Shown: piece after piece, positions 2,604 through 46,190 of the stretch
Position numbering within the stretch: position 1 is the stretch's first letter
How the letters are laid out: every line of letters starts with the position of its first letter
Origin: Gilvimarinus agarilyticus
Lineage (GTDB): Bacteria; Pseudomonadota; Gammaproteobacteria; Pseudomonadales; Cellvibrionaceae
Length of the DNA: 59,771 nucleotides
NCBI RefSeq assembly: GCF_000832015.1
Contig: NZ_JXCJ01000001.1
Coordinates: forward strand, 64,337-124,107
Direction: 5' to 3'
Notes under the pieces: model-generated
The model's input: only the letters and a program-made list of their open reading frames with translations
What the model was told of the DNA's origin: nothing
Database searches by the model: none
Translations under genes and position numbers: made by a program

Positions 2604-4397
2604 TTACTCTTTTGTGTCCCACAGGGCGGCAAAATCTGTTTTGGGGCGTGCGGCCTCCTCTGTAACCGGCTCGGCGCTGGCCAGCACCTTATAGGTAAAC
2701 TGGCTGACAATGCCGGTAGAAAACAAGCGGCGCGTTAGCTGCAAGCTGGTAACAGCGCCGTCTTGGTAGAGCCTGATTTTTTGCATTTCGCGAAAGCTCA
2801 CGGCGTTTGTCAGTAAACTGGCCGGCTGGTTGGCGAGACGCTGGGCCGGCAGCGCCAGTACCCGCAGGTACTCGGCGTAGTCGCCGGTTTTTTGTACGAT
2901 GGCGGCCGCCGCTGGTTGCGCCTGAGGCGCGAGCATTTGCACCCCTACCTGAGTGGTGTTGCGCGCCTGCTGCACCCAGCGCACCGCCGCAATCCCCCAT
3001 TTATGTCGGCCGGGCTCGCGCACGCCGAGCAGCTCGCCCGCTTTGAGGCCAGCTGGGCTGGCGCCATGCCATTCGAGGCAGTAACCGCCGGCGCTGACAT
3101 CGATCACGGCGACTTTATCGATGGGGTGCTGGCCGCGATATTTGGCTCGGGTGGCGCGGCGAATATTCTCTTCCATGTTGGCAGTCGAGTGGGTGCCGCT
3201 TTGCAGGGCGGGCTTGGCCACATCAAAAGCCTCGCCCCAGGGGTCGGCGGCGCTGGGGCTGATGCGGTCTTTTAGCTTGAGGCTACGCTGTTTGAATATG
3301 CCCTCGCTGCTATCCTCTAGCCCTAACTCAGAGGGGCTCTTGAGGTACAGATTAAAAGGGGTTTCGTCGGCGCTGTAAAAATGTAGGTTGCCCAGCCCAA
3401 TTGTCACCTCAAGCTCGCCGTTGCCGGCATGGCGTGGGTAGCTGCGCTCGACGGTGCGCTGCCAGGCGGCCTGTAAGTGGCCGGTTAGCGCCGGCGACAA
3501 ACGTGTCGTGGCGTTCTCGGGTAAAGTTTGCAGGGTTTGGCATGCCGCGCTGCTGTCTAATACGCGAACCTCTTGACTGTTGTATAACGACAGGCGGCTG
3601 CGATACACCGGCGGTTTGTCTTGATCGAGCATCACGGCGTATAGGCCATCGGGCGCTTGATGATCATCGGGATAGAGCTGCGCTTTGGCGCTGAGTGACT
3701 CGAGCGATAGATAAAGGTTGTATAAGTCGTTTTGCCCCAACTGGTTGGGGCGGGCCGCGGCCAGTAATACGATGCGCAGATAGGCCTGTTTGATACTTGC
3801 GATACCCTGGTGGTTGGGCAGAGGATCGTCAACTTTAAACTCGGTAAGGCCGTTGCGCTCAGCCAGTAAATACAGCGTGTTTAGCTCGAGCCAAAGCTGC
3901 TTTATGGTGGGGGTATACAGCTGGTAGCTGCGCAGCAACAGTAGGCCCAGCCCGGTAATGGCCCGGTGAATTGCCCGGCCGCGTAGCTCGTCGTTGCTGC
4001 GCTCGGTAAAGGCAGAGCGCAGCGCGACCAGGTAGGCGTTACTCAGATGTTTTTGCAGTGCCTGAGCGATGACGGCGGCCTTGCGCGCGGGCTCGGGTAA
4101 GATCAAAGGCTGGTGCAAAAACGCTTTACTGAGCCCTTGGATGGCCACATGCACCGCCGGGCGTACTTGATCGAGTACATCCAGGTGGTTTTGGGCGCCG
4201 GTCTTGAGGCGCGCTAACTCGGGCAGCGCCGCATACAAAATGGCACTGATATAGCGTGTTTGCGTTAGTGGTTGGGCGTCAATCCACCGGGCAACATTAG
4301 CGCTTGTCGCACTTTTGCAAAAGCTGAGGCTTTTAAGATCTGGCTCTGGCAGTTTTAGCTGCGCCAGCAGTGCGTCGTTGGTTAAGGCTTCGTTCAT
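2604..4397 (-). CDS. PilZ-domain protein with a large helical N-terminal region
   Basis: A 597-residue protein. The first 400 or so residues are mostly helical and match no domain I can name. The C-terminal part carries a PilZ-like segment with the DVSAGG motif (the D/N-x-S-x-x-G c-di-GMP-binding signature) after a basic stretch, RRATRAKYR. No signal peptide or membrane helix is visible, so it is probably cytoplasmic. It lies upstream of fimX on the same strand; the 283-bp gap holds only a 64-codon ORF (2339-2533) with no recognisable features. Likely a c-di-GMP effector; its target is unknown. Confidence 0.75.
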   Translation of the reverse strand: MNEALTNDALLAQLKLPEPDLKSLSFCKSATSANVARWIDAQPLTQTRYISAILYAALPELARLKTGAQNHLDVLDQVRPAVHVAIQGLSKAFLHQPLILPEPARKAAVIAQALQKHLSNAYLVALRSAFTERSNDELRGRAIHRAITGLGLLLLRSYQLYTPTIKQLWLELNTLYLLAERNGLTEFKVDDPLPNHQGIASIKQAYLRIVLLAAARPNQLGQNDLYNLYLSLESLSAKAQLYPDDHQAPDGLYAVMLDQDKPPVYRSRLSLYNSQEVRVLDSSAACQTLQTLPENATTRLSPALTGHLQAAWQRTVERSYPRHAGNGELEVTIGLGNLHFYSADETPFNLYLKSPSELGLEDSSEGIFKQRSLKLKDRISPSAADPWGEAFDVAKPALQSGTHSTANMEENIRRATRAKYRGQHPIDKVAVIDVSAGGYCLEWHGASPAGLKAGELLGVREPGRHKWGIAAVRWVQQARNTTQVGVQMLAPQAQPAAAAIVQKTGDYAEYLRVLALPAQRLANQPASLLTNAVSFREMQKIRLYQDGAVTSLQLTRRLFSTGIVSQFTYKVLASAEPVTEEAARPKTDFAALWDTKE

Positions 4398-4492
4398 GCT
4401 ATCGCTTATTACTCTGAGGTTACCGTTATACTATAGCGGATGGTGCCTGATTGTGACGCACGCTATAACAAAACCAATAAAATACGGCGGCG

Positions 4493-5500
4493 TTATATGA
4501 CCGGCGTTTTGGATGGTTGGCCGGGAATCTCACGTACCAGCTTGGGTACTAAATACCCAGACAGGCTGTGAAGTAGCCCCTGATGCAACCGTCTTGCTTT
4601 TGCCTCGGGCACGTCAAAATGCGCCGCCCCCGAGACTTTGTCCAGTAAGTGTAAGTAGTAAGGTAACACACCGCAGGCAAACAGCCGCTCACTAAGCTCG
4701 CTTAGTGCCGCTTGCGAGTCGTTGACGCCCTTTAGTAAGACGGTTTGGTTGAGCAGCGTAACGCCAGCCTGGCGCAGTTGGCCGAGGGCGTGGGCTACCG
4801 AGCCGTCCAGCTCGCGGGCGTGGTTGGCGTGTATCACCAGGGTGTTGGCAAAGCGCGGTCGGGCCAGCCAAGCCAGGCATTCATCGGTAATACGCTCTGG
4901 CACGACAATCGGCAGGCGCGAGTGCACCCGCAGGCGCGTGATGTGCGTAATGTGGCTGATCTCGTCGGTTAGCCAGCTAAGGGTAGCATCGGGGGCATTT
5001 AACGGGTCGCCGCCGCTAAAAATCACCTCGTGAATACTGGAATCCGCCCGAATGTAATCGAGTGCCTGTTGCCATTGGGCGCGGCTGGGGCGGTTGTCCG
5101 CGTAAGGGAAGTGCCGCCTAAAACAGTAGCGACAGTTAATGGCGCAGCTGCCGGTAACTACCAGCAGTACCCGGCCCTGATATTTGTGCACCAGCCCGGG
5201 GTGCGGGTTGGTGGTTTTTTCGGCAAGCGGGTCGTGGCTGTAACCGGGCACAGCCAGCAGCTCGTCGCCAATAGGCAGCACCTGACGCAGCAGCGGATCG
5301 TCGATATTACCGGGCTCCATCCGTCGCACAAAGCTGCGCGGCACCCGCAACGCAAAGTCGTTACCGGCTAAATGGGCGGCCGGCAGTAGTGCCGGGTCGA
5401 GTTTGAGGAGCGAAAATAGCTCTTCTGGGGTGCGAATAACGTTTTTAAGCGCCTCTTGCCAGGTCTCGGTCTGCCATGTAGCGACGGTTCGATGTATCAT
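4493..5500 (-). CDS. epmB: EF-P beta-lysylation protein EpmB (lysine 2,3-aminomutase family)
   Basis: A radical-SAM protein of 335 residues. The 4Fe-4S cysteines form C-x3-C-x2-C at C119, C123 and C126 ([17 protein letters not shown]), and FSGGDPL follows, as in lysine 2,3-aminomutases. EpmB converts L-alpha-lysine to (R)-beta-lysine, which EpmA attaches to elongation factor P. The gene is divergent from efp, only 40 bp away, and epmA follows efp, so the whole modification system is in one place. The size matches Escherichia coli YjeK. Confidence 0.95.
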
Positions 5501-44151: not shown

Positions 44152-44919
44152 GTGGATTTAGCAACGCTGATCGGGCTGATCGGGGCCGTGGGCCTGATTA
44201 TTGTCTCGATGTTTATGTCGGGTGAGATCGGCATGTTTCTTAACGCGCCTTCGCTGGTGATCGTGGTGGGCGGCAGTGTGTTTGCGGTGATGGCAAAATT
44301 TGGCCTCGGGCACTTTTTAAGCGCGTTTAAAGTGGCGGGTAAAAGCTTCGTCAATAAAATCGATGATCCGCTGGACCTGATCGACGAGGTAGTGGCACTG
44401 GCCGATGCCGCGCGCAAAGGTGGGTTACTCTCACTCGAAGGGCGTGAGGTGGGCAATAATTTTTTGCAAAAAGGTATTCAACTGTTGGTGGATGGCCACG
44501 ACCCGGACGTAGTGCGGGTGATGTTGTCCAAAGATCGCTCTCTGGCCGAGCGGCGGCACAACAACGGCTCGGCGATTTTTGCCTCGTTGGGTGATGTGGC
44601 GCCGGCCATGGGCATGATTGGCACCTTGATTGGCCTGGTGGCAATGCTCGCCAACATGGACGATCCCAAAGCCATTGGCCCGGCCATGGCGGTGGCGTTG
44701 TTAACCACACTATACGGTGCCATGTTGGCCAACGCGGTGTTTTTGCCGATCGCCGATAAACTTCGGCTGCGCGCCAGTGAAGAGCACATGATAAAAAGTA
44801 TGATTATCGATGGCTTGCTGGCGATTCAAGCGGGGCAAAACCCGCGGGTGATCGACACCATGCTGCGCACCTATCTGCCCGAGCGCAAGCGCGACGTCGT
44901 CGATGCGGCGGATGGTTAA
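44152..44919 (+). CDS. pomA: Flagellar stator protein PomA (MotA family, Na+ type)
   Basis: 255 residues with four membrane helices. MDLATLIGLIGAV, VVGGSVFAVMAKFGLG and GDVAPAMGMIGTLIGLVAML match Vibrio PomA more closely than E. coli MotA. With PomB it forms the ion channel that turns the flagellar motor. GTG start at 44152 after AGGAG. The large cytoplasmic loop lies around residues 60-145. Confidence 0.93.
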   Translation: MDLATLIGLIGAVGLIIVSMFMSGEIGMFLNAPSLVIVVGGSVFAVMAKFGLGHFLSAFKVAGKSFVNKIDDPLDLIDEVVALADAARKGGLLSLEGREVGNNFLQKGIQLLVDGHDPDVVRVMLSKDRSLAERRHNNGSAIFASLGDVAPAMGMIGTLIGLVAMLANMDDPKAIGPAMAVALLTTLYGAMLANAVFLPIADKLRLRASEEHMIKSMIIDGLLAIQAGQNPRVIDTMLRTYLPERKRDVVDAADG

Positions 44920-44925
44920 TCAGCC

Positions 44926-45918
44926 ATGAATGTTGACGACGAAGATATCGGCGACGGCTGCGATTGCAAGCCGGGTTTGCCGGCCTGGATGGCAACCTTT
45001 GCCGATTTGATGGCGCTGTTGATGTGTTTCTTTGTGCTGTTGTTGTCGTTCTCTGAGATGGACGCCATGAAGTTTAAGCGCTTGGCGGGCTCTTTGGCCC
45101 AGGCGTTCGGGGTGCAGGCGGAGGTCTCAGTAAACGAAATTCCCAAGGGCACCAGTATTATTGCGCAGGAGTTTAGCCCCGGTAAGCCCGAGCCTACCCC
45201 CATCAATGAGATCAGGCAGCACACCGAGGATATCACCCAGATGAGTCTTGAGGTGCGCGACTCGCAAGAGTACGACATCGAGCGCGGCGAGCCCGATATG
45301 GATGACAGCGCGCGCGAGCGGCTAGAGCAAATTATGCAGGAGCTGGTGGCACAAACCCGCCGCGATGCCGCCGAGCTGGCCGATACGCTCAAAGAGCAAA
45401 TCGCCAATGGTGAACTAGAAATAGAAACCCGTGGCCGGCACATTATCATCCGCATACGCGAGAAAGGCTCGTTTGAATCGGGCACCGCAACCCTGGCGCC
45501 AGATTATTACGATGTTATCGATGAGATTCGCGCCGTACTGATGCTGAAGCCGGGGCGCATTGAAGTGCAAGGGCACACCGATAACGTGCCCATTAACTCA
45601 GCACGCTTTCGCAATAATTGGGATTTGTCGGCGATGCGTGCCGCCTCGGTCGCCTCACAATTGCTGCGCGGCAACTACCTTGAGCCGCGTCGCTTTGAAG
45701 TGTCGGGCTTTGCCGATACCCGCCCGCTGGCCAGCAATGATTCAAGCGCCAACCGCGCGCGTAACCGCCGGGTTGAAATTGTGATTCGCCAGGGCCTTGG
45801 CGAGGATTTAAACCAAGACGACATCCAGCTGTTGAAACAGCAGGGAGACGACATCAGCCGTAAATTGGATGTGGCGCCGCAATACTTGTTTGACCTGGAG
45901 CCGGAGGAGGTTTTTTAA
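44926..45918 (+). CDS. pomB: Flagellar stator protein PomB (MotB family, Na+ type)
   Basis: 330 residues. A short cytoplasmic head with CDCKPG, one helix with the ion-binding Asp27 (ATFADLMALLMCFFVLLLSF), the plug and linker with IPKGTSIIAQEF as in Vibrio PomB, and a C-terminal OmpA-like peptidoglycan-binding domain (EVQGHTDNVPI, NRARNRRVEIVI). These sequence traits favour a sodium-driven stator. It is six bp after pomA. Confidence 0.93.
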   Translation: MNVDDEDIGDGCDCKPGLPAWMATFADLMALLMCFFVLLLSFSEMDAMKFKRLAGSLAQAFGVQAEVSVNEIPKGTSIIAQEFSPGKPEPTPINEIRQHTEDITQMSLEVRDSQEYDIERGEPDMDDSARERLEQIMQELVAQTRRDAAELADTLKEQIANGELEIETRGRHIIIRIREKGSFESGTATLAPDYYDVIDEIRAVLMLKPGRIEVQGHTDNVPINSARFRNNWDLSAMRAASVASQLLRGNYLEPRRFEVSGFADTRPLASNDSSANRARNRRVEIVIRQGLGEDLNQDDIQLLKQQGDDISRKLDVAPQYLFDLEPEEVF

Positions 45919-45921
45919 CCT

Positions 45922-45939
45922 TGTACGATATGTCGTACA
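45922..45939. promoter_or_regulatory. GacA-box-like palindrome upstream of the small RNA
   Basis: TGTACGA-TATG-TCGTACA is a perfect 18-bp dyad and matches the GacA/UvrY upstream element TGTAAG-N2-AT-N2-CTTACA at all but two of the fixed positions. Its centre is about 65 bp before the predicted RNA start, as for Pseudomonas rsmY. Confidence 0.75.
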
Positions 45940-45983
45940 CGAAACTGTGACAAAGGCGACTATTTTGGCTGTGCTTAGGGGCG

Positions 45984-45989
45984 CATAAT
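45984..45989 (+). promoter_or_regulatory. -10 element of the small RNA promoter
   Basis: CATAAT (five of six consensus bases). No good -35 is found at 17 bp (TATTTT), consistent with a promoter that depends on an activator such as GacA. Confidence 0.55.
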
Positions 45990-45994
45990 AGCTC

Positions 45995-46186
45995 ACTGGA
46001 CACGAGCATATGGATCATGGCTGTTCAGAACGGACTTCCACGGACTGTCATAGGGACTATGGCGTAACACGGATTACCCACAAGGAGTGTGAGGCAAGGA
46101 ACAGACGGATCTCGCCGACTTTGAGCCCAAGGCTGGTCTCCATCCTGTAAAACCCGCAGCAGGCCCCCTTGCTGCGGGTTTTCTTC
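45995..46186 (+). ncRNA. CsrB/RsmY/RsmZ-type small RNA
   Basis: About 190 nt with no ORF, between pomB and an MFS gene. It contains nine GGA motifs (45998, 46012, 46032, 46042, 46054, 46071, 46084, 46098, 46107). Several are in hairpin loops: CATA-GGGAC-TATG (46049-46061), CACA-AGGAG-TGTG (46079-46091) and AGCAT-ATGGATC-ATG (46005-46019). Five fit AYGGAY. It has an upstream GacA-like box and a strong terminator. This is the layout of RNAs that sequester CsrA/RsmA. Family is inferred from features, not from a covariance search. Confidence 0.8.
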
Positions 46187-46190
46187 GTTT
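46149..46190 (+). terminator. Terminator of the small RNA
   Basis: AAAACCCGCAGCA pairs with TGCTGCGGGTTTT across an eight-base loop, a 13-bp stem followed by TTCTTCGTTTT. Confidence 0.9.

Follow-up and report, generated by a model that had tools for sequence, protein, structure and literature searches.

The intergenic region behind the stator genes of Gilvimarinus agarilyticus very probably encodes a GacA-activated RNA of about 190 nt, which would sequester CsrA/RsmA on its GGA motifs beside a longer CsrB-like RNA. In the window, that is, the whole 59.8-kb stretch of DNA analysed here, the unit from the GacA-type box to the terminator occupies 45922–46186 on the plus strand. The earlier note had read this region as a small RNA of the CsrB/RsmY/RsmZ type, and that reading is upheld: the box, its spacing, the GGA motifs and the terminator are conserved in the alignment of relatives, and homologues of both csrA and gacA are present in the genome. 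What was observed directly in the genomes is the gene anatomy, its conservation in the genus and the family, how rare the strict box is and where it lies, and the presence of gacA and csrA. Confidence in the functional kind, a Gac-switched CsrA sponge, is high, and confidence in the role of the 3' motif described below is low. No Rfam family matches at the locus, and the RNA is therefore considered a new family, of a functional kind that is already known. The features are as follows, all on the plus strand of the window.

44152–44919 (+): pomA/motA-type stator gene, neighbour (PF01618)
44926–45918 (+): pomB/motB-type stator gene, upstream neighbour (PF13677 and PF00691)
45922–45939 (+): GacA-type box (upstream activating sequence) TGTACGATATGTCGTACA, with two mismatches to TGTAAGN6CTTACA
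45984–45989 (+): -10 element CATAAT, whose ATAAT columns are invariant in the genus alignment
45996–46186 (+): putative small RNA of about 190 nt, with both ends predicted from alignments and the models R1 and R2
45996–46062 (+): 5' extension, containing five of the nine GGA motifs, from alignments
46079–46091 (+): hairpin H1, CACA-AGGAG-UGUG, with GGA in the loop, from fold energies against shuffles
46093–46116 (+): core GGCARGGA...ACGGA...GCC with two GGA, from the 39-sequence alignment
46123–46140 (+): hairpin H3 (GAGCC...GGUCUC), 5' of the 3' motif, from fold energies against shuffles
46141–46149 (+): near-invariant 3' motif CAUCCUGUA, the complement of ACAGGAUG, from the 39-member alignment
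46149–46182 (+): intrinsic terminator of 15 pairs with the loop CCCC, followed by a T-rich stretch; stem pairs are changed on both sides among relatives

Based on the known Gac/Rsm pathway, GacA would bind the box and switch on transcription of an RNA that measures about 190 nt here and about 120 nt in most relatives. The GGA motifs would then sequester the translational repressor CsrA/RsmA, and the mRNAs bound by CsrA would thereby be released. The small RNA would do so alongside the second, longer CsrB-like RNA of the same genome. The family Cellvibrionaceae includes marine polysaccharide degraders and shipworm symbionts, and the RNA family described here provides candidate outputs of their Gac/Csr pathway. 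The alignment could be used to seed an Rfam family. A CSRNA_FIND prediction paper of 2006 reportedly may list candidates in related genomes.

The 18-bp palindrome, in which two differences from the GacA consensus had been noticed, is the only TGTANGN6CNTACA in the window, where three sites show two or fewer mismatches to the consensus. It is aligned in all eight genus members, and the distance from the start of the box to the end of the -10 element is exactly 68 bp in every one of them. With the start placed at about 45996, the centre of the box lies at about -66, in agreement with the approximately 65 bp given before. Judged from the sequence, a GacA box is thus located upstream of the promoter near the expected position of about -75; the consensus and the position are those given in the consulted parts of PMC4950607, PMC8523701 and PMC4353343. 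No sigma-70 -35/-10 pair was found on the plus strand of the locus, and no -35 element was recognised.

A strict box pattern was derived from these loci, so that the RNA locus fits it by construction, and it gives 2–5 sites per genus genome, 22 in total. Of 16 counts with the reversed pattern, used as a control, 15 give no site and the other gives 1. In each of the eight genomes, one strict site precedes the RNA and another precedes the longer CsrB-like RNA. The remaining six strict sites are in the window genome (G000) and in the genomes G004 and G005. Loose palindromes with two mismatches were rejected as GacA sites: the genome has 97, compared with 55 matches to the reversed pattern, and they are thus mostly noise.

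Nine GGA motifs are present within 112 nt (45998–46109). The nine motifs in about 115 nt reported previously are the highest 115-nt count of the window on both strands: only one start has at least nine, and the next independent cluster has seven. In the 152-nt body, the nine motifs compare with a mean of 3.2 in mononucleotide shuffles (0 of 1000 reach nine) and 5.2 in dinucleotide shuffles (1.9% reach nine). The contexts of the GGA motifs give the same count of five fitting AYGGAY as before. The 5' extension is seen only in the window and in G005, the nearest relative, both of which are about 70 nt longer on the 5' side, and is missing from the six other genus members, in which the RNA is about 120 nt with 4–5 GGA. 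In these six short forms the 4–5 motifs fall within about 80 nt, a density that 6–45% of dinucleotide shuffles reach; for G005, with seven GGA, 16% of dinucleotide shuffles reach seven. The strong terminator that had been proposed is present, with 15 pairs rather than 13. No ORF of at least 60 aa is found inside the RNA on the plus strand, consistent with the earlier observation. Several GGA motifs, the lack of such an ORF, an intrinsic terminator and conservation in relatives are found together, as expected for a CsrA sponge.

The predicted structure contributes less. At least three GGA motifs had been assigned to hairpin loops; in the ensemble, a hairpin-loop position is firm only for the GGA at 46054, and four of the nine are unpaired at more than 0.6. 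The fold of the whole RNA is no more stable than those of shuffled sequences (z -0.79; 44 of 200 shuffles fold equally well or better), and the case therefore does not rest on folding energy. Among the local elements, H3 has a mean z of -1.36 against mononucleotide shuffles and is negative in every genus group. The energy of H1 is on average below shuffles (mean z -0.97), most strongly in genus g2 (z -2.6), although not in genera g12, g20, g29, g3 and g4. Stem sequences vary among genera while the pairing, compared by eye, is kept. In the core, the GG is invariant in 39 of 39 sequences; GGCAAGGA is exact in 11, and the remainder are close variants.

In DNA searches at the same sensitivity, the region is present in all eight genomes of the genus, including that of the window, and in none of 50 others. 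The parts conserved in the genus are the palindrome, the ATAAT of the -10 element, the GGCA.GGA core, the second GGA, a CATCCTG stretch and GCCCCCTTG in the terminator. Model R1, a covariance model without the box, was built from the eight genus sequences. It matches 39 of 144 family genomes, of which eight are its own sources and one (G102) is counted through a match judged false. Among the 40 R1 loci examined outside the genus, which include three organisms twice, 37 have a box of at least 9/12 in the 200 nt upstream, against 9% in shuffles, and 27 have one of at least 10/12, against 1%. The box lies 72–80 nt before the start of the R1 match in 32 of the 40. Scores below 9 are seen at L104 (8/12), at L148, which is the end of a coding gene and is judged false, and at L098, a long form with its box about 300 nt upstream of the R1 match. 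A score of 8/12 was not accepted as evidence, as 50% of shuffles reach 8.

In a box-first scan, a relaxed box pattern was searched downstream of 47 pomB records. A box is found in 24 of them, where 0.2 are expected from mononucleotide shuffles; these are 6 of 6 Gilvimarinus records and 18 of 41 others. At least four GGA (4–9) follow within 130 nt of the box in all 24. The organisms named among these include Gilvimarinus, Marinimicrobium, Teredinibacter, Exilibacterium, Aestuariicella, Pseudomaricurvus, Marinagarivorans and Candidatus Endobugula. Among the 23 negative records, one has only 53 bases to scan, and L093 has the RNA behind a box that starts with CGT and is missed by the pattern. The other negative records may lack the RNA or carry it elsewhere.

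Model R2 was made from the 39 sequences of alignment A4, and uses sequence only because RNAalifold on A4 gave just six pairs, those of AUCCUGU. Five divergent or long loci were excluded from A4 (L104, L118, L092, L098, and L146, which is from the same organism as L093), all of which have CCTGT before the terminator. Also excluded were L148, the terminator-like match L082, an antisense match on L084, and the duplicates L106 (of L145) and L108 (of L154). R2 gives a match in 101 of the 144 family genomes, spread over 20 of 32 genera; these figures count model matches, with the box looked for at few R2 loci and about 39 of the 101 genomes having supplied the model sequences; 43 of the 144 give no match. 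In the order, 18 of 390 genomes match, and 16 of these are in the family. Four R2 loci were fetched for the box: three have it by the pattern, and the fourth (L240) has CGTGAGAAATATCTCACA, which the pattern misses.

Two R2 matches close together are seen in each of four genomes (G105, G096, G104 and G106). In G105 (L239:594-1010), one of two that were fetched, two boxes lie 269 bp apart with a GGA-rich RNA behind each; the first RNA is short, and the second is a long form that measures about 330 nt from its box to the CATCCTGTGAG 3' end common to both. Another long form is seen in Pseudomaricurvus alkylphenolicus (L098, ~4166-4606), where the 3' motif is 387 nt from the box, which suggests growth by added GGA units.

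The other components of the pathway are encoded in the same genomes. CsrA (PF02599) is found in all eight genus genomes, and the copy of the window genome scores 87.7 bits. Two of the eight have a further CsrA homologue that is more divergent (G001:C26:469404 and G003:C1:1263815; 47 and 53 bits, compared with 87). A single clear orthologue of E. coli UvrY, GacA, is present in the window genome (48% identity, 212 bits, the next 56). It lies just before a long uvrC-like frame, which was named uvrC from its reading and from the gene order in E. coli. The consulted part of the Teredinibacter turnerae genome paper mentions GacS, GacA and two CsrA and names no RNA locus (PMC2699552).

The second RNA behind a strict box is 237–423 nt with 14–22 GGA in the eight genus genomes, so that a short and a long Gac-type RNA are both present in each of the eight examined. 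In the window genome it is on the minus strand of L196 (G000:C1 ~1794200-1794630), about 420 nt with 22 GGA. The CsrB model gives it 34.6 bits in the window genome (gathering 71); in two other genomes, CsrB gives 23.2 bits and RsmY 29.0 bits. In the five remaining genus genomes, no Rfam match to this RNA is found at E 0.1.

Nowhere in the window does an Rfam family reach its gathering score. Among the models recommended in the earlier note, RsmY, RsmZ, CsrB, CsrC and TwoAYGGAY give no match at the locus in the eight genomes at E ≤ 10. RsmY (RF00195, cut-off 57 bits) matches neither the locus at E ≤ 10 nor the window genome at E ≤ 0.001. RsmZ (RF00166, cut-off 44 bits) matches none of five genus genomes, and exceeds its cut-off in all four order-mates that bear RsmY, presumably Pseudomonadaceae. 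CsrB (RF00018, cut-off 71 bits) was likewise rejected for the RNA locus.

The RNA resembles RsmY and RsmZ of Pseudomonas in having several GGA, an intrinsic terminator, csrA/rsmA and gacA in the genome, and a length of about 120 nt in most members. It differs from them in lacking a covariance-model match and in its 3' UCCUG motif, absent from the eight RsmY and RsmZ examined. According to the consulted part of PMC4950607, the GacA site of rsmY is about 75 bp upstream. With CsrB/RsmB and CsrC it shares the function class, and a separate CsrB-like RNA stands behind a GacA box in the same genome; the window RNA, with nine GGA, is shorter than CsrB. This length border is not sharp, because L239 from another genus includes a long form with the common 3' end. 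RsmW of P. aeruginosa is also a short RNA, with seven GGA, and binds RsmA; unlike the present RNA, it appears to be derived from a 3'-UTR, with a weak GacA site about 830 bp upstream (excerpts of PMC4950607). The CsrB/CsrC-type RNAs of Marinomonas mediterranea, also a marine gammaproteobacterium, share TGTAAGN6CTTACA and ANGGA motifs, and their expression depends on a two-component system; they are at other loci and are set apart by their description (excerpts of PMC8523701). In open-licence papers on Cellvibrionaceae, Cellvibrio japonicus, Gilvimarinus, Teredinibacter and Microbulbifer, as far as titles and the beginnings of abstracts go, no description of the RNA was found.

A distinguishing feature of this RNA is AUCCUGU, which precedes the terminator. 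It is exact in 34 of the 39 aligned members, and CCUG is kept in 39 of 39, from 12 genera. This conservation is partly ascertained, because the motif is part of both R1 and R2. The set obtained box-first is less biased in this respect, although it covers only relatives that have pomB and shares organisms with the R1 set: 23 of 24 have CCTG(T/C) before the terminator, the one without being Pseudomaricurvus alcaniphilus (L109), and 19 of 24 have CCTGT(A/G)A, with CCTGCA or CCTGTAC seen by eye in four Gilvimarinus. At the 3' end, TCCTG is absent from four RsmY, four RsmZ and E. coli csrB and csrC; one of the four RsmZ has it at the 5' edge. AUCCUGU is the exact complement of ACAGGAU, which we take to be a match to the CsrA SELEX site. 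The likeliest roles of AUCCUGU are masking of GGA sites and sequence-specific base pairing.

The first of these would be a refinement of the sponge reading, in which AUCCUGU pairs with the GCA-GGA of the core or with another GGA of the same RNA, and sets the number of CsrA dimers bound or marks the free RNA for decay. We consider this plausible, although somewhat short of an even chance. RNAalifold on the 39 sequences returns only the pairing of GCA.GGA with UCC.UGU, whose six pairs are each kept in at least 38 of 39, and the segment is mostly paired in single-sequence ensembles (anchored on an earlier CCUG in L076, L145 and L147). None of the six pairs shows a compensatory change in the 39 sequences, however; the pairing partners in the ensembles vary between species, and the pairing competes with the GGC/GCC closing stem. 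The permutation test is also weak: AUCCUGU gains 0.55 kcal/mol on average for its own fold, and a third of the permutations are equally stable. Self-pairing alone does not seem to explain the strictness of AUCCUGU, because permuting it changes the stability of the fold little. A purely structural element was not retained, given the weak support from RNAalifold and permutation.

The conservation, apparently stricter than self-pairing explains, suggests an intermolecular partner or a protein contact. It can be speculated, with considerable doubt, that the RNA is a two-headed regulator: the GGA motifs would soak up CsrA, and AUCCUGU, as an antisense copy of the CsrA site, would pair with or compete for the vacated ACAGGA sites on mRNAs or in its own fold. 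A narrower refinement of the sponge reading seems slightly less likely still, namely that the GGA motifs titrate CsrA and AUCCUGU pairs in trans with ACAGGA-type sites, either in the Shine-Dalgarno regions of CsrA target mRNAs or in the GGA repeats of the CsrB-like partner. The conservation in the aligned and box-first sets, the exact complementarity, the small effect of permutation, the lack of a 3' TCCTG in the known RNAs examined and the retention of the motif in the long tandem copy of L239 all favour pairing in trans, with the ascertainment counting against it. The CsrB-like RNA has 1–3 copies of ACAGGA in the other genomes but none in G005, which weakens AUCCUGU as an anti-CsrB segment. 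A conserved complement of a CsrA site, missing from the RsmY and RsmZ examined, is open to a mutational test.

The genes around the putative sponge RNA are MotA/ExbB-family and MotB-type stator genes upstream and an MFS transporter gene downstream; pomAB rather than motAB is the usage of the earlier note, and the assignment is at the level of families. In the window and in each of the seven genus-mates (8/8 Gilvimarinus genomes), the unit immediately follows pomB, with 3–62 bp from the pomB stop to the box in the genus and 5 bp in Marinimicrobium agarilyticum. In other genera it follows pomB directly, or follows pomB and a PilZ-type gene. The control of motility suggested earlier agrees with this gene order behind stator genes in several genera, but with nothing beyond it; a specific tie of the RNA to motility would be gene order only. 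The same proximity could mean that the RNA belongs to the transcript of pomAB or pomAB-pilZ, as a 3'-UTR element or a cis leader acting on motility or on the downstream MFS gene. This is very unlikely, as the RNA has its own box and -10 element at fixed spacing and its own terminator, and of 22 loci matched by R1 in other genera, each about 3 kb long, 11 contain pomB sequence, although pomB may lie just beyond the others. A small protein gene instead of a noncoding RNA is hardly credible: the 46-codon ATG frame at 46010–46148 is open in the window, but no frame of G005 gives a matching ORF and the stretch is mostly missing in the six other genus members.

The TwoAYGGAY model (RF01731, two AYGGAY hairpins, cut-off 43 bits) finds its matches elsewhere in the genomes, and the kinship proposed from the five AYGGAY motifs is not borne out. 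There are 6–24 matches per genus genome at E ≤ 0.001, at 93 places, not all of them over the cut-off. Four of these places (L034, L037, L040 and L048) look like a dispersed intergenic repeat. Either this RNA family is multicopy in the genus or the model catches a repeat.

The window genome has a third strict GacA-type box at G000:C1:3063953-3063970 (L032:354-371), without an adjacent GGA-rich RNA. Of three sites with one mismatch, the two that were read (G000:C1:3065044 and 2905261) show no GGA-rich RNA by eye. In two species, a GacA-type box is directly upstream of a gene for a small helix-hairpin-helix protein (PF12836), at L200:1501-1906 in G005 and L209:283-690 in G004. The protein is presumably ComEA-like, and its gene is a possible direct protein-coding target of Gac in these two species.
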